A stretch of DNA of 42,240 nucleotides from an uncultured Clostridia bacterium (GTDB lineage Bacteria > Bacillota > Clostridia > Christensenellales > Borkfalkiaceae). The position numbers were made by a program, and so were the translations under genes. Shown here one piece after another: positions 2,862-12,491 of this stretch (position 1 is the first letter of the stretch; every line of letters starts with the position of its first letter). The DNA is taken from NCBI GenBank assembly GCA_944372075.1, contig CALVYJ010000001.1, positions 1 through 42,240 of the forward strand. Reading direction: 5' to 3'. The notes beneath the pieces were generated by a model that did not search any database, had not been told where the DNA came from, and saw nothing but the letters and a program-made list of their open reading frames with translations.

Positions 2862-2906
2862 TTCGTAATCAGCAGGTCGCCGGTTCAAGTCCGGCCAGTA
2901 GCTCCA
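2862..2906 (+). tRNA. 3' fragment of tRNA-Thr(CGT), probable attachment site
   Basis: The sequence runs from the anticodon loop TTCGTAA (anticodon CGT) through the 3' strand of the anticodon stem (TCAGC), the T arm (GCCGG, loop TTCAAGT, CCGGC at 2879-2895) and the acceptor strand to CCA at 2904-2906. The 5' half (acceptor 5' strand, D arm, 5' anticodon strand) is missing; the bases before 2862 do not pair correctly. A fragment cut at the anticodon loop is the usual footprint of integration into a tRNA gene. An independent terminator follows. Confidence 0.75.
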
Positions 2907-2908
2907 AA

Positions 2909-2992: not shown

Positions 2993-4800
<1,808 letters not shown>

Positions 4801-4995: not shown

Positions 4996-5283
4996 TTATA
5001 GTGTTCCGCTGTTTTTCTTTTCACTCTCAAAGAAGTCATCATAACCGTCCATAAGTTTGGCGAGGTTAGTATCGTGCCGAGATAACAGCTCCTCATAACC
5101 CGCCTGTATAAGCTCAACCTTCGTATAACCGTATTTTTTCAGAAATGAATTTATCTCGTTCAATAATTCTCTCGGTATCATTGTCTGAAAATTGCCACAC
5201 TTATTACGGCGTTCTTCCTTGTGAGTTTCCTCGTATTTCCTATTCGCTTTGCGAGTAGGCGTGTCCTCTTTTCTCGTTACCAT
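4996..5283 (-). CDS. Ribbon-helix-helix-like DNA-binding protein (probable autorepressor)
   Basis: This is a 95-residue protein with a basic N-terminal tail (KEDTPTRKANRKYEE). A strand-helix-helix pattern follows: GNFQTMIPRELLNEINSFLKK, then YTKVELIQAGYEELL. An acidic tail ends it (DGYDDFFESEKK). RHH proteins on clostridial mobilizable elements commonly repress their own operon. Its promoter carries a 20-bp perfect palindrome overlapping the -10 box, which fits binding by an RHH dimer of dimers. A GGGAGG lies 6 nt before the ATG. It probably controls its own expression and may influence the recombinase genes downstream. Confidence 0.65.
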   Translation of the reverse strand: MVTRKEDTPTRKANRKYEETHKEERRNKCGNFQTMIPRELLNEINSFLKKYGYTKVELIQAGYEELLSRHDTNLAKLMDGYDDFFESEKKNSGTL

Positions 5284-5356: not shown

Positions 5357-6001
5357 TTATTTCAGCAATAAAAATGCCGTGATGACTGTCTGCACCAAGA
5401 GTAGTACAGGTGTCGCCCAAAACATAAACTTTCTAAAGCCGCGCTCGTAGTGTATGTCGTCTTTCACGCCGTCTATTTCTTTTTCAGCGGCTTTGACTTT
5501 CTTCGAGATTTCTTCTGCCTGCTTATCCATTTTTGCAATGGCACTGTCTGCAGCTTCGTTTATCTTCTTATTGAAAAGGGCGGTAGCTTCGTTAGTCGCC
5601 TTTGCCGTAGCTGTACTTACTTCTTCCTGTATTTGAGTTGCTATTTCCGTCATCCGGCGTATTAACTTCCTCAACACTTCCGACAGGTTGTTGTTGCTCT
5701 CTTTCAGCTCTTTCAGCATATTCTCTATGTCTTCTTTCAGATTCTTCACGAGCCCTTTGTTGTTCCATTTCACGTTCGACACTTGCTGCGTCAGTTCCTC
5801 GACTTGCGCAATTAGCTTCAAAATTAAGCCGTTGCATTTCTCGTTCGATACTGTCAAGGCTTGCTGCAATAAGGCTTCCCGCGCTTGCGCCGTGAGTAGC
5901 TGTACCTGTTCGCACAATTCTTGTGCCGGCAGATTGTCCTCGATAGTTACCGTTTCGTCCGCTATGGGCTGCGGACTTTTGCCTGTTAGTTTGTTCTCCA
6001 A
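5357..6001 (-). CDS. mobB: MobB-like coiled-coil membrane protein, overprinted on the relaxase gene
   Basis: This 214-residue protein has a mostly helical, charged body (about residues 45-185, with runs such as LTQQVSNVKWNNKGLVKNL and KMDKQAEEISKKVKAAEKEI) and one C-terminal membrane helix (FMFWATPVLLLVQTVITAFLLLK). This layout matches MobB-type mobilization proteins, which anchor the relaxosome to the membrane and stabilise relaxase-oriT complexes. The first 410 nt lie inside the 3' end of the relaxase gene in a different frame, as mobB does within mobA of several plasmids. An AGATATTGAGAAAACTTGG stretch precedes the ATG, without a strong ribosome site, so coupling to relaxase translation is likely. 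Confidence 0.75.
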   Translation of the reverse strand: MENKLTGKSPQPIADETVTIEDNLPAQELCEQVQLLTAQAREALLQQALTVSNEKCNGLILKLIAQVEELTQQVSNVKWNNKGLVKNLKEDIENMLKELKESNNNLSEVLRKLIRRMTEIATQIQEEVSTATAKATNEATALFNKKINEAADSAIAKMDKQAEEISKKVKAAEKEIDGVKDDIHYERGFRKFMFWATPVLLLVQTVITAFLLLK

Positions 6002-6734
6002 GTTTTCTCAATATCTCCTTTTTTGTGTAGTTTGTTCCGAGCTTTTCCCCTCGGATAGGTTTCTTTTTCTGCGGATGAAGGTAGGAATAGTCCTTACCGT
6101 CCTGCGTGATTTTTACGCCGTAACAACTGTCAAGGTATTCTTTGAACTCATCCGCCGTTTTACATTTACCTACGGCTTCCTGAATTACCTCGCGCAATTC
6201 TTCTTTCCAAGATACGCCGCCGTTCTTCATTATCTTTTGCTCCGTCGCCGTTCTGCTGTTCTTGCCGCGTTTACGGAAGTCCGTTTCGGTAAATCCGTAC
6301 TGCTTGCCGATACGATTAGCCTCGTCCTTCATAGCAACATAATCTTTGGGGCTGAATTGCAATTTCTTCCCCGTGAGCGGATCGACGGCGTTCACGATTA
6401 TGTGGCTATGTACGGTCTGCGTGTCGGTGTGGGTAGCGATTACGCACTCATAGTCCCGGAACAATTTTTCCGCAAGTTCTTCGGCGTACTTATGCGCTTG
6501 CAGTGGACTGACGTTATCTTTTCTCGCGCACGATAGTTTGAAGTGATAATACTTGCGCTCTTTGTAGTCCGTACCTTTTCCGTACATAGCCGCCGTTTCC
6601 TCAAACTGCTTGGCGTAGTCCTCATCCTCGAATAAATTACGGACGGATACATACGCCGCCTTTTCGGGCTTCGTAATATAAGTGATCGCGTTTTTTGGTC
6701 TTGCTTTGCCTGCGGTACATTTGAGTAACGGCAT
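5592..6734 (-). CDS. mobA: MobA/VirD2-family relaxase
   Basis: This 380-residue mobilization endonuclease would nick oriT and pilot the single strand during transfer. The relaxase domain spans residues about 1-240. The start MPLLKCTAGKARPKNAITYI contains the ITYI motif with the likely catalytic Tyr. The histidine triad is in THTDTQTVHSHIIVNAV (motif III). The LHPQKKKPIRGEKLG segment and KEILRKL follow. The C-terminal third is low-complexity, Gln/Glu/Arg-rich and is where the second frame encodes the MobB-like protein. Its ATG overlaps the MobC stop by one base (6734). The family is MOB-P-like by motif layout. Confidence 0.9.
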   Translation of the reverse strand: MPLLKCTAGKARPKNAITYITKPEKAAYVSVRNLFEDEDYAKQFEETAAMYGKGTDYKERKYYHFKLSCARKDNVSPLQAHKYAEELAEKLFRDYECVIATHTDTQTVHSHIIVNAVDPLTGKKLQFSPKDYVAMKDEANRIGKQYGFTETDFRKRGKNSRTATEQKIMKNGGVSWKEELREVIQEAVGKCKTADEFKEYLDSCYGVKITQDGKDYSYLHPQKKKPIRGEKLGTNYTKKEILRKLGEQTNRQKSAAHSGRNGNYRGQSAGTRIVRTGTATHGASAGSLIAASLDSIEREMQRLNFEANCASRGTDAASVEREMEQQRAREESERRHREYAERAEREQQQPVGSVEEVNTPDDGNSNSNTGRSKYSYGKGD

Positions 6735-7048
6735 TATCCACCCCCAACGGCGGTAGTGATTGCTTTATACGTTTTCTTTAATTCTTCGGCGCAAGATAAA
6801 ATGCGCCGCTGTTCCGCATCACCGTAGTAGCAATACTTTAACGCCTGATTAAGATTGTTTCCTTGCCGTTTCAACTCGGCTAACATCTCGCTCGCGTGTT
6901 CCACCACGATAATCGGTTTATCGGTGATTGCCCGTATTACAAACTCCGTCATAGAACGTCCGCTCGTCGCTATCGCTTTGTCTATTAAGTTTTTCTCTTG
7001 TTCGCTTGCCCTGAATATGTAAGCGAACGGTCTTGTTCTGTTGCCTAT
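6734..7048 (-). CDS. mobC: MobC relaxosome accessory protein, with a non-standard start
   Basis: From a conventional ATG at 6952 only 72 residues are coded, but the same frame continues upstream with clear MobC sequence: GNRTRPFAYIFRASEQEKN, then LIDKAIATSGRSMTEFVIRA. That is the RHH domain of MobC, followed by LAELKRQGNNLNQALKYC, the family's signature helix. The only codons at a proper distance from the GGAGG at about 7053-7057 are ATT and ATA (7048), so either ATA starts the 104-residue protein or an ATG was mutated. MobC binds oriT and assists relaxase nicking. The stop overlaps the relaxase ATG. The ORF could be partly inactivated. Confidence 0.75.
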   Translation of the reverse strand: MGNRTRPFAYIFRASEQEKNLIDKAIATSGRSMTEFVIRAITDKPIIVVEHASEMLAELKRQGNNLNQALKYCYYGDAEQRRILSCAEELKKTYKAITTAVGGG

Positions 7049-7093
7049 AATTTTTCCCTCCTCATCAATTTTGTTCGTCGGATTATCGGGGTA

Positions 7094-7251: not shown

Positions 7252-7289
7252 CACCTCCGTAATTTTTATTTTTTGTCCTGTGCGGGCAT

Positions 7290-7320
7290 AGAAAAAGCCC
7301 GACCAATGTTCTTGGTCGAG
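7290..7320 (-). terminator. Terminator-like hairpin, minus strand
   Basis: CGACCAA and TTGGTCG pair across a short loop, and the minus strand continues GGGCTTTTTC. It separates the polymerase gene from the mobilization genes. Confidence 0.6.
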
Positions 7321-7463
7321 CCGAGATTTTACCGATCTGTACGCTCGGTGTCTATAACGCCGATTAGAGCTTTTTTATTTACGTTTGTGTTTTTCCAAAA
7401 TTGTCCCCGAAAAACAACCGATTCTGCCCGAAAATACGGGGGTTTTTAGAGGTTTTTTCAAAA

Positions 7464-7512: not shown

Positions 7513-10071
7513 CTACTTAATTGCAAATTTCATACCGTACATTTCGTATTTGCCGTTTTTATCTTCAACCACTTTGGGTGTAACGATAGTATCGTCGTCC
7601 ACGTCCCACATAAACTTTTCATATACGGGGCTGTTCATCAAGGCGGCGTAGATATGCCAATCCGAAGCAGCGTTCTTTTCATAATGCCGCAGGACGAGGA
7701 TAAGCACGTTTTTGTTCGTAAGCCATTTTGAGGCTTGCTCGTCGCGCTCGTTCTTTTCCTGTTCTATCCTGTCGTAGAGGACTTCTTTTTCATCATCGTC
7801 GGCAGAGCGCAGAGCGCTGTATAACTGCTTTATCCGAGCCTTTGCGGTGTCGCAGATTTCCACGATTTTATCCTTGTGCCTGTACTCGGTTGCATTACCT
7901 ATGACTAACGCGCTGCCGAGCTGAACGGATATGGGAATAAAGAATTTCTTTTGTTTTCTGCCTTCGCGGAAAGAAATTTTATTTGCCGCCTCATAGATAT
8001 AATCCATTGCGGTTTTATGAAAGCGGTATTGCCGTTCCTTATCTTTTATGCGGTGTATCTCTTTGAAAAAGACCGGCGCGGGAACACTATATTTCTTTTG
8101 CAGAGCCGTTATTTCCTTGCCGACATTTACATTGTCATAGGCGCGTTTTGCTTTGTCTATCTCAATACCAGACAATACGGCGAGCTTACACACGTCCTCG
8201 TAAACAGGAAGTATATCCTTTTCGTTTGCGCCGTTGTTGAATTTATCCCAAATAATGCTGTTGAGCCGTTGCGATAGATTTACGATCTCTCCGATTTTGT
8301 TCTCGCTTGTTTCATAATCGAGCAAGGCAACAGATGACTTTGACTTGCTCACGGAAGGGATATTGCATACAGGCACTTTGAATAGGCTTTTATATTTTTC
8401 TGCGGCTTCCACCAAAAGCGCGTCGTCCGTTACAAGCATAGCATCCGAGTCATAATCGCAACCATTCAGGCGCTGCTGTATATTCTCCCCGATGGCATTG
8501 ACGCAGACTATATTTTCGCCCAAGTCAAAGTAGTCCCATATATCTCCGTCAAGATTATTTTCCACGCAGTAGAGATTGCCCATAGTGATATGCGGTGAAC
8601 GGGCGCAAAGCAATTTTGCGCCATCGGCAAATCGTTCACAATAGATTTGCCCCGATTGCAAAATGCTCTTTATTTCTTCACCGGCTATGTATTGCAACAG
8701 TTCGGGACCGTTTCCGAAAAGAGTAGCATTTGTGCCGTTAAAAAGAATATGACCTTTTTTCAACCTGTCTTTCAGACTTCTGACCACGTCGTTACGGAAG
8801 TTTTCGTAAAGCGCCGTGTAGCTGAAATGCGGCGATTGGAACATAAGAGTAAACAGCACGTCCGCTCTGTCCGCAAGACCTTCGGCACGTTCTTCCGAAT
8901 CTTCGTCCTTATCTCTCGCAAAAGCGTCCGTAAAATGGTAACGCATAAAGTGTATTTCTTTGCGGACGATGGCGATATAATCTATGCTCGGTTGAAGCAA
9001 ACGGGCAACCTGTTCTTCCCCAAGAGGTAGTGTATTAAGCACCTGATAACTGCTCTGTACCGTTTTGCCGTGGAAAAAATGCGTAGGTTTATCCCATTTG
9101 ACCACGCCGAAGGTGCTATTTACATTGTCCGCCCACTTGCGGATATTCTTTTCGTTCAGGTCGCCGACGAATTTTAAGTATTTCAGGCTGTTGGGCGTTG
9201 TTACCATTACGATCTGACTTATATCCGTCGCAAGCGTAAAGCCGCGAGTTTTAAGGTCGTCAAGCGTTATGCCTTTGTCTTTTATCCATTGTTGTAGCTT
9301 TGTACGGAAGGCGCACGACTTGAAAAACTTGTTGCGAAGAAGCAGGAAGTGCTTGTCCGAATACTCGCCCGAAAACAGGCTTTCGTCCAAAAGGCTTTCT
9401 CCGTCCCATATATCGTTGGTTATCTGCGTTTCCTTTTCTGTGGCTATGAGCTTGCCGTCCTGCATTTCTACCGATACGACTTTATCTGTAAAAGTGCTTT
9501 TGTAGTCCGGCACAAAGAGGATACCGTCAAGCGGAATATCTATAACGCCCTTGATAGAGGAAAGAGATAAGGCGCGATAAGATTCCCACGACGCGAGGTC
9601 TGAACTTTGTTTAATGCCGCACTCGCTCCATTTGGTCATATACTTGTAAAGCCGCTCATCAATGAAAAGGCATTTACCTTCGCGTGAGCTGCCCGCGCTA
9701 CGCTTGTATCTTACATAGTGAACGCTATCCAAGTTAAAGCCGTTAGAGTAAAAGTGATCGCGCAGAGCCTTTTTGTTTATTACCTTACCGCCATCGGCTT
9801 TGTATGTATAATTGAACTTTACATTTACTACGGCGAGGGTGTAGGAATTATTGTGTTTGTCCACAAAGGAAAACTTTTTGCGGCAGATACGAGTATATGC
9901 CTTTTCAAGCTCTACCGTGTCAAGCGAATAATCCAATGTGTTTTTGAACAACCAAAAATAGGCGTCCGATTTGTATTCGGGCATTTTGTATCCGACTTCG
10001 ACGCCGTATTCCTGTTCGTGCTTGTATAGGTCGCAAGCCTCTATTGAAATTATCCGATAGCCCTTTACCAT
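7513..10071 (-). CDS. Single-chain RNA polymerase of the YonO/QDE-1 (RDR) double-psi beta-barrel family
   Basis: This 852-residue protein (start ATG 10071) carries the active-site signature of two-barrel RNA polymerases. NGCDYDSDAML at about 536-546 aligns with the beta' NADFDGDQM and with the DxDGD of eukaryotic RDRs, giving D539, D541 and D543 as metal ligands; the usual Gly is Ser. Just before it lies ARSPHITMGNLYCVEN, matching the RDR pattern RNPCLHPGD. The upstream barrel shows WDGESLLD (222-229) and RNKFFKSCAFRTKL (246-259), whose lysines would match the beta-subunit pair. SYQVLNTL (341-348) and the N-terminal RYKRSAGSSREGKCLF match RDR segments. Residues 550-852 are an uncharacterised helical tail. 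The enzyme could make RNA from DNA (as YonO does) or from RNA. It sits alone between terminators, opposite no partner. Exact template and role are unknown. Confidence 0.8.
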   Translation of the reverse strand: MVKGYRIISIEACDLYKHEQEYGVEVGYKMPEYKSDAYFWLFKNTLDYSLDTVELEKAYTRICRKKFSFVDKHNNSYTLAVVNVKFNYTYKADGGKVINKKALRDHFYSNGFNLDSVHYVRYKRSAGSSREGKCLFIDERLYKYMTKWSECGIKQSSDLASWESYRALSLSSIKGVIDIPLDGILFVPDYKSTFTDKVVSVEMQDGKLIATEKETQITNDIWDGESLLDESLFSGEYSDKHFLLLRNKFFKSCAFRTKLQQWIKDKGITLDDLKTRGFTLATDISQIVMVTTPNSLKYLKFVGDLNEKNIRKWADNVNSTFGVVKWDKPTHFFHGKTVQSSYQVLNTLPLGEEQVARLLQPSIDYIAIVRKEIHFMRYHFTDAFARDKDEDSEERAEGLADRADVLFTLMFQSPHFSYTALYENFRNDVVRSLKDRLKKGHILFNGTNATLFGNGPELLQYIAGEEIKSILQSGQIYCERFADGAKLLCARSPHITMGNLYCVENNLDGDIWDYFDLGENIVCVNAIGENIQQRLNGCDYDSDAMLVTDDALLVEAAEKYKSLFKVPVCNIPSVSKSKSSVALLDYETSENKIGEIVNLSQRLNSIIWDKFNNGANEKDILPVYEDVCKLAVLSGIEIDKAKRAYDNVNVGKEITALQKKYSVPAPVFFKEIHRIKDKERQYRFHKTAMDYIYEAANKISFREGRKQKKFFIPISVQLGSALVIGNATEYRHKDKIVEICDTAKARIKQLYSALRSADDDEKEVLYDRIEQEKNERDEQASKWLTNKNVLILVLRHYEKNAASDWHIYAALMNSPVYEKFMWDVDDDTIVTPKVVEDKNGKYEMYGMKFAIK

Positions 10072-10110
10072 AAAGCTATTATAACATATTATTGTTGACA
10101 ATAGTTGTCA
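10072..10110 (-). promoter_or_regulatory. Extended -10 promoter giving a leaderless mRNA, with upstream inverted repeat
   Basis: On the minus strand TGTTATAAT (TG at 10086-10085, TATAAT at 10083-10078) is a perfect extended -10 box placed 6 nt before the polymerase ATG. Transcription would begin at or next to the A of the start codon, and no ribosome site exists. TGACAA-TAG-TTGTCA (10096-10110) is a perfect inverted repeat where a -35 box would be, so an activator or repressor may bind there. Confidence 0.65.
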
Positions 10111-10205
10111 TAATTAAAAAGTTTTTTATAAATGTACCATTATAGGGACAAGGTATGTTTTCCGCTTAAAAGGGTTCCGCTCTTACCGCTGAACAGCACC
10201 TTCTA

Positions 10206-10243
10206 AAAACGGACAGACAATTTATTATGCCTGCCCGTTTTGC
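10206..10243. terminator. Imperfect hairpin flanked by A and T runs
   Basis: AAAACGGACAG and CTGCCCGTTTT pair with one mismatch. It lies in the 10,102-10,462 gap, which also contains the polymerase promoter on the left and the marR promoter on the right. It may mark the right end of the mobilizable element. Confidence 0.4.
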
Positions 10244-10391
10244 TTTTGACTATTCTGCTCGGCGGTGATACTTACCCTTATTATAGCATAAAAGTAGTTT
10301 AGGAGATCTTGTCGATTAAAGAGAAAAACGATAGTAGTCCTATCATTTAAAGTCTTTATTTTTCGTAAATTTTTATTTAGCCTTTTAATGG

Positions 10392-10450
10392 TTGACAAAT
10401 GTCCGAATTCGGACTATAATATTTGTGTCCGAATTCGGACTGTCGGAGGG
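10392..10450 (+). promoter_or_regulatory. marR-cfr promoter with two identical palindromic operators
   Basis: TTGACA (10392-10397), a 17-nt spacer and TATAAT (10415-10420) form a consensus promoter. GTCCGAATTCGGAC, a perfect 14-bp palindrome, fills the spacer at 10401-10414 and recurs at 10427-10440, 26 bp away and over the start of transcription. This is a textbook repressor arrangement for a MarR dimer. GGAGGG (10445-10450) is the ribosome site. Confidence 0.85.
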
Positions 10451-10462
10451 TTAGAATAAGAA

Positions 10463-10912
10463 ATGAATATTAGAGAACAATTATCTGAATTAAATAAAAT
10501 GTCTAAACGTAGTGTCGCACTTTACCATAAATTTGCAAATTCTATCGGAATTTCAGATAGTTCGCTTGGCGTTTTATATGCGTTAGCGGAAGGCGCTCCT
10601 TGTTCGCAATACGATTTATGTAATAAATGGGCAATTCCAAAACAAACCGTAAATACCGCCTTAGCCTCTTTGCAAAATAAAGGATTTATAACTCTTTCCA
10701 CGATTAGCGGAACAAGAAAAAAGAAAAGTATTTCTTTAACCGCCGCAGGAAAGGAATTTGCCGCAAAGACAATCAATGTATTACTTGATACGGAGCTTGC
10801 CGCCCTTGCCTCTTTAACGCCCGAAGAAAGAGAGCTTTATATCAGCTTAAATAAGAAATATAACGAACATTTAACAGAGAAACTCCAAAATATTATTATG
10901 GGAACAAGTTAA
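10463..10912 (+). CDS. MarR-family transcriptional regulator
   Basis: This 149-residue protein has the MarR winged helix-turn-helix layout. The dimerisation helix comes first (LSELNKMSKRSVALYHKFAN), then SSLGVLYALAEGA, the recognition helix region (QYDLCNKWAIPKQTVNTALASL), the wing (KGFITLSTISGTRKKKSISL) and the C-terminal helix (TPEERELYISLNKKYNEHL). Two identical palindromes in its promoter are the obvious operators, so it probably represses itself and the downstream Cfr-like gene, which begins 3 nt after its stop codon. The inducer is unknown; a ribosome-targeting antibiotic is a reasonable guess because of the neighbour. Confidence 0.85.
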   Translation: MNIREQLSELNKMSKRSVALYHKFANSIGISDSSLGVLYALAEGAPCSQYDLCNKWAIPKQTVNTALASLQNKGFITLSTISGTRKKKSISLTAAGKEFAAKTINVLLDTELAALASLTPEERELYISLNKKYNEHLTEKLQNIIMGTS

Positions 10913-10915
10913 ATT

Positions 10916-12157
10916 ATGTCAAAATTTCTAAAAATGAAAGAGCTTATAGCCGAGATGAACTTGCCCGATTATCGCTATAAGCAATTATTGGACGCTGTCT
11001 TCCGACAACACACAATACGCTTTGAAGATATGAAACCGCTCCCAAAAGAACTGCGGGGAAAACTTATCGAGCAATTTGGGGAAACGGTAATAGGAATTAA
11101 AGCTATTCATCACGAAAAATCAACGCAAACTGACAAGGTACTGTTTGAACTGCCCGACGGCAACCGCGTTGAAACGGTAGGCTTGTTTTACAAAGAGGGT
11201 TGGAATTCATTTTGTATATCCTCGCAGAGCGGTTGTGCATTTGGTTGTAAATTCTGTGCTACGGGCACGCTGGGTTTACATAGAAATATGACGTCAGATG
11301 AGATATGCGACCAAGTTCTTTACTTTATGCAGCAGGGGTTTACGATAAACAGCATTTCCTTTATGGGTATGGGCGAGCCGTTTGCAAACCCGAATTTGTT
11401 TGAAGCTCTGCGCGACTTGACGGATACTGAATTATTCGGCTTATCTCAAAGACGAATAACCATCTCTACTATCGGCATAGTTCCAAGTATTAAAAGATTG
11501 ACAAAAGAATTTCCGCAGATTAATTTAGCATATTCACTACACGCGCCGACTAATCAGTTGAGGGAAACGCTTATGCCGATTACAAAAACGTACTCTCTTG
11601 ATTTGGTACTTGACACGTTAGATAACCATATACGACAAACAAATCGAAAAGTATTTTTAGCATATATAATGCTGAAAGGTATAAATGACAGCGAAAAACA
11701 CGCCGAGCAACTTATAGAACTATTATTCCGGCACAAAAAATATCTTGCACTATATCATTTAGACTTAATTCCGTATAATCAGACAACGGTTGCTCAAAAA
11801 CTAACGCCACCAAGCAACAAGTGCATACAAGCTTTTTGCAAAGTTTTGCACGGTGCGGGAATAAGCGTAAATATAAGGACGCAATTCGGTTCTGATATAA
11901 ATGCCGCTTGCGGTCAGTTGGCTGGAACATACAACAATAAATCAGAAAAAGGAGAAACAAAAATGTTACAAGAACAAGAAAAATCATTACAGTGGTTATT
12001 GTGTCCTGTGTGTAAAAACAAAACACGGGTAAAAATAAGAGATGATACCGTACTTGAAAAATTTCCGCTGTTTTGTCCAAAATGTAAAAACGAAACGCTT
12101 ATCAATGTTAAACAATTTAATATAACCGTCATCAAAGAGCCAAACGCAAAGACGTAG
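10916..12157 (+). CDS. Cfr-like 23S rRNA (adenine2503-C8) methyltransferase fused to a cysteine-rich KTR domain
   Basis: Residues 1-340 resemble Cfr more than RlmN: RFEDMKPLPKELR, WNSFCISSQSGC, FGCKFCATG, and ISTIGIVPSIKRLTKEFPQ. The radical-SAM cluster cysteines are C107, C111 and C114; the methyl-carrying C100 and C332 (AACGQL) match the two catalytic cysteines of Cfr. Cfr enzymes methylate A2503 at C8 and give resistance to phenicols, lincosamides, oxazolidinones, pleuromutilins and streptogramin A. Residues 360-413 form the KTR zinc ribbon (CPVC at 363-366, CPKC at 387-390), usually a separate small protein of conjugative elements. The frame is continuous, but a GGAG (11951-11954) before the ATG at 11963 (residue 350) could also give free KTR protein. 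No ribosome site precedes 10916, so translation is likely coupled to marR. Activity is not proven. Confidence 0.85.
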   Translation: MSKFLKMKELIAEMNLPDYRYKQLLDAVFRQHTIRFEDMKPLPKELRGKLIEQFGETVIGIKAIHHEKSTQTDKVLFELPDGNRVETVGLFYKEGWNSFCISSQSGCAFGCKFCATGTLGLHRNMTSDEICDQVLYFMQQGFTINSISFMGMGEPFANPNLFEALRDLTDTELFGLSQRRITISTIGIVPSIKRLTKEFPQINLAYSLHAPTNQLRETLMPITKTYSLDLVLDTLDNHIRQTNRKVFLAYIMLKGINDSEKHAEQLIELLFRHKKYLALYHLDLIPYNQTTVAQKLTPPSNKCIQAFCKVLHGAGISVNIRTQFGSDINAACGQLAGTYNNKSEKGETKMLQEQEKSLQWLLCPVCKNKTRVKIRDDTVLEKFPLFCPKCKNETLINVKQFNITVIKEPNAKT

Positions 12158-12469: not shown

Positions 12470-12491
12470 ACCCTTTGCGGGTGTCTTTTTG
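12470..12491 (+). terminator. Hairpin ACACCC-TTTGC-GGGTGT with T-run
   Basis: The stem is followed by CTTTTTG on the plus strand. No plus-strand gene ends nearby, so it may belong to a lost gene. Confidence 0.45.

Follow-up and report, generated by a model that had tools for sequence, protein, structure and literature searches.

A YonO-family RNA polymerase gene on a mobilizable island, with a candidate promoter element before the transfer operon

Introduction

What does a single-chain RNA polymerase do on a mobilizable island? The question arises from a 42,240-nucleotide stretch of DNA of an uncultured Clostridia bacterium (the window), in which a sequence-only reading had recognised a polymerase gene of the YonO/QDE-1 type. 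Its product, according to that reading, could transcribe element genes, copy the transferred single strand or act in RNA-based defence. Biochemically, YonO of phage SPbeta is a strict DNA-dependent enzyme (PMC5467207) that is less responsive to pausing (PMC5467207), and YonO-like proteins occur in phages and bacterial chromosomes (PMC5467207). The part of PMC7824862 available to us mentions, in general terms, superfamily polymerases (YonO-like, NCgl1702-like) on transposons and mobile elements.

Results

The polymerase gene lies on the minus strand at 7513..10071 and encodes 852 amino acids from an ATG at 10071 that matches the starts of relatives in our alignment; a TTG at 10101 would give 862 amino acids (7513-10101). 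The sequence-only reading had placed an open frame here, on this strand, and every motif it listed is present: RSPHITMGN, a lysine segment (RNKFFKSCAFRTKL) and a DxDxD polymerase triad within NGCDYDSDAML (D539/D541/D543 counted from the ATG, D549/D551/D553 from the TTG). The three aspartates are invariant in 80 relatives (28-74% identity), as are R501, P503, H504, K261, K307, K335, I648-D649 and A651-K652. The serine of DYDSD, which the reading had seen to replace the glycine of DxDGD, is nearly invariant across the same 80 relatives, while YonO itself has DNDGD.

To place the protein, we compared it with sequence profiles and solved structures. PHROG 8308 matched residues 109-823 (E 5.9e-86); this is the YonO family, as phi3T YonO matches it at 2e-303, and among 14 control genomes it matched B. 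subtilis only. Comparison of the 80-sequence alignment with SPbeta YonO by hhalign (probability 98.4, E 1e-14, 512 columns) paired NGCDYDSDAML with LLQFDNDGDKALI. An AlphaFold model of the polymerase (pLDDT 89.9, pTM 0.89) was searched with Foldseek against the PDB, and the top matches were maize and Arabidopsis RDR2 and QDE-1 (E 4e-16 to 1e-12, probability 1.0). These alignments covered nearly the whole polymerase (TM ~0.5, ~850-930 columns) and were followed by a drop to multisubunit polymerases at E 0.01. The best match among viral models was a podovirus protein labelled "RNA dependent RNA polymerase" (1e-52, TM 0.79). Since searches of Pfam, NCBIfam and PDB sequences returned nothing credible, the identification rests on PHROGs, hhalign and the fold. 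The RdRP family PF05183 also gave no match, in a genome search that had no positive control.

By profile and predicted fold, the protein is almost certainly a YonO-family single-chain RNA polymerase with an RDR-like fold, which bears out the earlier assignment and places it with, not outside, the double-psi-barrel RDR/QDE-1 polymerases. From the full-length alignments to QDE-1 and RDR2, the modelled structure has two catalytic barrels in one chain. Like YonO (SPbeta, NP_046615), it combines PHROG 8308 membership, a single chain, two barrels and DxDxD, and YonO also has a served operon downstream (PMC5467207). The two proteins are ~20% identical, the glycine of DxDGD is serine in the island enzyme, and YonO resides on a phage with late genes downstream whereas the island polymerases reside on mobilizable islands with transfer genes downstream. 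QDE-1 and RDR2 share the overall fold and active-site architecture in the Foldseek comparison, but are only 11-13% identical and belong to eukaryotic RNA silencing. DNA-dependent RNA synthesis is a predicted activity of the island enzyme.

The polymerase gene is present once in its own genome, with an intact frame, and matches were found in 22 of 201 genomes of the same family, many of them fragments. For pairs of close relatives, dN/dS was 0.06-0.15. The polymerase is under strong purifying selection, and these ratios argue that it is kept for its function; together with the single copy and the recurrence in 22 of the 201 genomes, they argue that the gene is not there by chance. A host sigma-A-type -10 box, TATAAT, lies six bases before the ATG (10078..10083, minus strand). 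In a hexamer survey of island relatives, 15 of 20 had a -10-like hexamer (one mismatch allowed) near the polymerase start, versus 5.7 expected by shuffling. This suggests that the host polymerase transcribes the gene and that the transcript has hardly any leader or none.

The polymerase sits on a ~9-kb mobilizable island that carries a serine recombinase, a MobA relaxase, a NikA-like MobC, MarR and Cfr. On the minus strand, together with the polymerase and the element R1 described below, are genes for a NikA/MobC-like mobilization protein (6734..~7078, a frame open from an RxRPFAY motif, whose relatives match the NikA-like family PF21983), a MobA/VirD2-type relaxase (5592..6734; PF03432, E 1.7e-27), a small conserved element protein and a large TnpX-like serine recombinase (2993..4615; PF00239, PF07508, PF13408 and PF14287, that is, Resolvase, Recombinase, zinc ribbon and DUF4368). 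The small protein (4996..5283) belongs to a cluster, C14, of 73-95 amino acids that accompanies the module in 11 loci and matched no Pfam family. The cargo, on the plus strand, consists of a MarR-type regulator (10463..10912; PF12802, E 2.3e-10) and a Cfr-family 23S rRNA A2503-C8 methyltransferase fused to Cys_rich_KTR (10916..12157; CfrAB, PF14205) that scored 549.9 bits with NCBIfam CfrAB against a cut-off of 530. Pfam matches confirmed the serine-recombinase and MobA neighbours named in the sequence-only reading, and this context recurs in many genomes. The gene had also been described as large and isolated; isolated it is not, since it is co-directional with nikA, relaxase and recombinase genes downstream.

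The island has features of an integrative mobilizable element (a relaxase with an accessory protein, and a site-specific recombinase), and its left flank holds a tRNA 3′ fragment. A search via the right-flank gene found no clean empty site among 40 genomes of the genus. TnpX-type serine-recombinase mobilizable elements with MobA are Tn4451-like. Our island resembles them in its large serine recombinase and MobA relaxase and, in relatives, a TnpV-like gene, but differs in having the polymerase and R1 between the transfer genes and the cargo.

The gene order in relatives is cargo, polymerase, R1, NikA and MobA (PF03432) or DUF6291 and MobL (PF18555), a TnpV-like gene and a recombinase. The two relaxase types are unrelated, and most of the cargo serves defence or resistance. 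The polymerase, R1 and transfer genes are co-directional in the window, L052-L054, L056, L061-L064 and L070; L052 is Pumilibacter muris, which has been cultured. Defence models of PADLOC matched 8 of 9 hand-picked cargo proteins, with type III, IIG and IV restriction, DrmD-like, TmtA, SpbK/type II restriction, Tmn and PDC-S53 represented; the polymerase itself had no PADLOC match. Other cargo included polysaccharide genes and a Tet(M/W/O)-type gene immediately next to a truncated polymerase.

We collected 76 polymerase loci from a scan of genome contigs and 76 from a scan of viral contigs. The viral loci came from an alignment query, as a search of the viral contigs with a single polymerase sequence returned nothing. 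Contigs often break off within the polymerase gene, which would fit near-identical copies in the genome or population, if such exist. Neighbouring genes were scored with models built in this analysis. Phage relatives have terminase, portal, HU and phosphoesterase genes beside the polymerase, and the window clade has relaxases, NikA-like or DUF6291 proteins, TnpV-like proteins and recombinases. In a tree, the window fell in a set of 24 rows (support 88, not starred) that held no phage row; 12 of these rows have relaxases, 3 have DUF6291, 4 lie beside an AAA ATPase gene and 5 are other. A set of 53 rows (support 96, starred) held 33 phage-marked rows and no relaxase row. We rejected the idea that the window clade is a phage gene, as terminase and portal genes occurred in no row and relaxases were found instead. 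L034, a very distant polymerase, likewise has a relaxase and a serine recombinase beside it, and relaxases of still other types occur at L044/L102 and L116. From these contexts, polymerases of this family may have been recruited to mobilizable elements more than once.

The polymerase is an optional part of these islands. When 201 genomes were surveyed starting from the relaxases, related MobA relaxases turned up in 18 and MobL relaxases in 28, in most cases without the polymerase. The polymerase-free islands that we read carry NikA-MobA-recombinase or DUF6291-MobL modules beside other genes, although some of the contigs end close by. Constant travel of the polymerase with MobA/TnpX, for which the sequence-only reading had proposed a survey, was rejected by these many related relaxase islands. 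Some relatives occupy fixed chromosomal places beside an AAA ATPase gene, and decayed copies also occur.

Between the polymerase gene and the transfer operon, we found a cis element, R1 (7267..7370, minus strand), made up of a linear motif and two to three hairpins. It scored 89.7 bits (E 8e-17) with a covariance model that the window itself had helped to build, and was the sole strong hit in its genome. R1 lies 90-170 nt past the polymerase stop, with variable sequence between. Its consensus is CTAATcrrCGTAatAGrA followed by hairpin 1, hairpin 2 with a T run and often a third hairpin, the loops being mostly GAACA pentaloops. In the window, the conserved linear motif (TAATCGGCGTTATAG), a putative start-site or promoter signal, is at 7352..7366, hairpin 1 at 7331..7349 (two-sided changes in 6 of 7 pairs, 17 sequences) and hairpin 2, a GAACA loop and then a T run, at 7296..7322 (96% of cells paired), all on the minus strand. 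Hairpin 2 resembles an intrinsic terminator of the host. Over the 17 sequences, whose alignment also served to build the covariance model, the R1 stems had 38 cells with two-sided changes versus 17 in shuffles (0 of 500 shuffles was as high), and the signal collapsed when the structure was slid. Rfam gave no credible match on the window.

How closely is R1 tied to the polymerase? Within 154 sources, including polymerase-free islands and 50-odd phage contigs, model hits of at least 38 bits were confined to the position immediately 3′ of the polymerase gene in its clade. L065/L067 had a weak hit (23 bits) at the corresponding place, and among these sources R1 was absent from islands with related relaxases but without the polymerase. 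However, a survey of 201 genomes recovered three more true copies that have no adjacent polymerase (L304-L306); one of the three genomes has a polymerase-bearing island elsewhere (G060). We rejected the notion that R1 occurs solely beside the polymerase, and these three copies genuinely limit how far R1 can be assigned to it. Hits below 37 bits in this survey were ordinary terminators, those adjacent to polymerases aside. Since R1 is common to two relaxase types and missing from related polymerase-free relaxase islands, it is disfavoured as the oriT of the relaxase.

A motif of the R1 type was found at the same place, before the late genes, in the nearest phages: CTAATAGGCGTATAGGGAGA in L128, CTAATTGTCGTATAGGGAGA in L081, CTAATTGCCGTATAGGGGAGA in L123, TTAATTGCCGTATATGGAGA in L122, CTAATTGGTGTAAATGGAGA in L132 and TAATTGCCGTATAGGGGAGA in both L182 and L163. 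Downstream are tRNA genes, or a phosphoesterase gene and other late genes. Among the YonO-like polymerases of gut Firmicutes phages (L081, L122, L123, L128), it is the closest that share the motif downstream of the gene; those of the L081 type are 38-43% identical to the window polymerase, while polymerases of Enterocloster/Thomasclavelia phages are only ~21% identical. The phage loci differ from the islands in being linked to terminase, portal and HU genes and in having neither a relaxase nor the R1 hairpin array. At most 330 nt past the stop, the exact word TAATNNNCGTA occurs in 14 of 18 islands (0.1 expected), a circular figure as the islands defined the word, in 3 of 6 loci of the closest phage group against 0.02 expected, and in 1 of the 80 other loci. 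The motif was defined post hoc, which makes any enrichment in its defining sets circular; the exact phage counts and SPbeta are only partly independent checks. A recognisable motif was absent at that place from most other phage groups and from chromosomal relatives, and a search for a repeated promoter word in the other phage groups gave tRNA genes or nothing.

The late start used by YonO has been mapped to 2225998 in strain 168, ahead of yonK and a non-coding RNA, with the promoter sequence left unknown (PMC5467207). We converted this position to L051:6426 using two mutations in SP1 coordinates (PMC10516654), SPBc2 gene starts and, for the step from 168 to SP1, the net +5 bases of an indel table (PMC7409865). 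The SPbeta sequence there is CGGATAATAGTCATTTATGAGGG, and a word of the form TAATNNNC[GA]T[AT] begins at 6424. The coding strand from yonO to yonK holds four words of this form against an expectation of ~0.2, and a TAATNNNCAT word lies in the segment L051:6380-6460. As a partial check, the word at the mapped YonO start agrees with the idea of a promoter. The mapped start, however, lies within the word, unlike in T7-type promoters, where it follows, and of the SPbeta words the one closest to the island consensus is at L051:5634, not at the mapped start.

Discussion

We lean, by little more than an even chance, towards a model drawn from the sequence comparisons in which the polymerase and R1 form a dedicated polymerase-promoter pair for the transfer operon of the island. 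The host polymerase would make the island enzyme from the sigma-A-type promoter that immediately precedes its start codon. This enzyme would then recognise R1 downstream of its own gene, start there and transcribe the co-directional transfer operon of nikA, relaxase and recombinase, much as YonO transcribes the SPbeta late operon downstream of its gene; transfer would then depend on the enzyme. Because YonO is little affected by pausing, the R1 hairpin could hold back the host polymerase but not the island enzyme. Our guess is that the terminator-like hairpin stops the host polymerase and that a YonO-type enzyme reads through, a scheme that would insulate the transfer genes from cargo and host transcription. 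Of the three functions put forward in the sequence-only reading, these data favour transcription of element genes most, though only by inference. Against a dedicated promoter stand the facultative presence of the polymerase, the solitary copies in L304-L306, the circularity of the enrichments and the lack of the motif in most other phage groups.

Some of these points suit a polymerase that serves the island or host in another way, such as cargo expression or anti-phage activity, and owes its place by the transfer module to history. The facultative presence of the gene, its position at the border of a defence-rich cargo, the relatives at fixed chromosomal places by an AAA ATPase gene and the decayed copies would all fit accessory cargo. 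We nevertheless consider this unlikely, as the polymerase keeps the same place and direction with respect to R1 and the transfer operon across two relaxase modules, R1 is conserved together with the polymerase, and the enzyme has no PADLOC match. Taking R1 as a mere structured 3′ end, a terminator and a transfer-operon leader with no bearing on polymerase specificity, would account for the resemblance of hairpin 2 to a good intrinsic terminator, for the weak model hits elsewhere that are ordinary terminators and for the three copies without an adjacent polymerase. But the 16-nt linear motif, whose conservation goes beyond that of terminators, recurs at the same place in phages, and a similar word lies at the SPbeta start site, making such an explanation very unlikely.

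In another reading, R1, with hairpins that resemble single-strand origins or the Frpo single-stranded DNA promoter, would work on the transferred single strand, and the enzyme would make a primer or the first transcripts in the recipient; we regard this as quite unlikely. R1 is a tandem hairpin array with covarying stems that adjoins the mobilization genes, the link to transfer genes recurs with several relaxase types, and QDE-1-type enzymes accept single-stranded DNA. However, the motif also occurs in phage relatives, which have no conjugative step, what islands and phages share is the linear motif and not the hairpins, the recipient would need to be supplied with the enzyme or to make it from single-stranded DNA, and polymerase-free islands exist. 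Improbable in our view is the specific proposal that a QDE-1-like enzyme of the element recognises the hairpin array on the incoming strand and primes or transcribes it, allowing establishment independent of the host polymerase. Least credible is an RNA-dependent polymerase in RNA-based defence, akin to eukaryotic RDR and QDE-1. RDR2 and QDE-1 are indeed the nearest solved structures, but the sequence family is that of YonO, a strict DNA-dependent enzyme (PMC5467207), the Pfam family PF05183 had no match and small-RNA machinery was not seen beside the polymerase; on family, PF05183 result and neighbours, an RNA-silencing enzyme is strongly disfavoured.

The sequence-only reading knew of no description of such a system. 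YonO-like polymerases on mobile elements had been noted before in general (PMC7824862, PMC5467207), so only the specific arrangement can count as undescribed in the literature searched. NCgl1702-like polymerases, which we compared by description, are likewise single-chain two-barrel enzymes on a mobile element, and the available part of PMC7824862 describes neither a promoter nor a link to a transfer operon for them. The literature searched links no such polymerase to relaxase islands and proposes no promoter. The arrangement of polymerase, R1 and transfer operon therefore appears undescribed in this literature.

If the dedicated-promoter model is true, these mobilizable islands would express their transfer genes through an RNA polymerase of their own, something credited until now to phages. 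Through such islands, multidrug resistance (Cfr, Tet) and anti-phage systems spread in the gut. With a candidate motif, the matter that the YonO paper left open, which promoter sequence this ancient class of RDR-like polymerases uses, also becomes testable; SPbeta in B. subtilis 168 offers a laboratory system that is at hand, and the islands and phages would provide independent test templates.

Likely resistance genes near the polymerase

The island in the window encodes an in-frame fusion of a Cfr-type 23S rRNA methyltransferase, whose score exceeds the cut-off of the NCBIfam CfrAB model, and a Cys_rich_KTR domain (10916-12157, forward strand). This fusion is likely multidrug-resistance cargo in the genome of a gut Clostridia bacterium. 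A MarR gene precedes it.

Resistance genes also occur with relatives of the YonO-family polymerase. On contigs L037 and L038, a truncated polymerase (about residues 406-827) directly adjoins a gene for ribosomal protection of the Tet(M/W/O) type, and contig L036 stops inside the same stretch. These sheep and deer gut contigs hold near-identical copies, which suggests recent spread. In locus L044 (MT835887), a YonO-like polymerase and a tet ribosomal-protection gene occur together with tyrosine integrases and a MobP3-like relaxase; its database record is labelled bacteriophage, but to judge from its genes it is probably a mobile element rather than a phage. In two other loci (L055 and L076, 8529-8873), the full polymerase gene comes after an N-terminal polymerase fragment of 114 aa and a gene of 318 aa, a layout that looks as if cargo had been gained through recombination at the polymerase gene start.

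Features around the window island and in phages

Immediately left of the recombinase end lies a partial tRNA gene that comprises the 3′ portion, with the T arm and acceptor (about 2865-2907, forward strand); no complete tRNA gene is present in the whole 42,240-nt stretch. Sequences that resemble terminators (GACACCC/GGGTGTC) are found near 2913 and, in inverted form, near 12475. The NikA-like frame (6734-7078, reverse strand) lacks a usual start codon ahead of its first conserved motif. The sequence there has GAGGAGG followed by ATT or ATA, as it does in relatives (island L054).

In SPbeta (L051, 7393-7467), TAATCAGCGTAAT exactly matches the motif of island L063; it is found in the non-coding stretch ahead of yonK, at the margin of a match to the Rfam DUF3800-VIII RNA. 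In the phage relatives L081, L128, and L131, tRNA genes lie immediately 3′ of the putative start site, before the late genes.

Distant and chromosomal polymerases

L034 encodes a YonO-like polymerase of 1008 aa that is very distantly related (about 20% identity; 7886-10912, reverse strand). Next to it are a relaxase and a serine recombinase, together with a ParM-like gene and restriction-like genes. At five chromosomal loci (L069, L117, L072, L074, and L109), a YonO-like polymerase gene is followed by an AAA ATPase gene (neighbour cluster C67); in L069 and L117 the polymerase gene is itself preceded by an RlmCD-like methyltransferase gene. From this gene order, it is possible that the polymerase and ATPase form a pair outside mobile elements.
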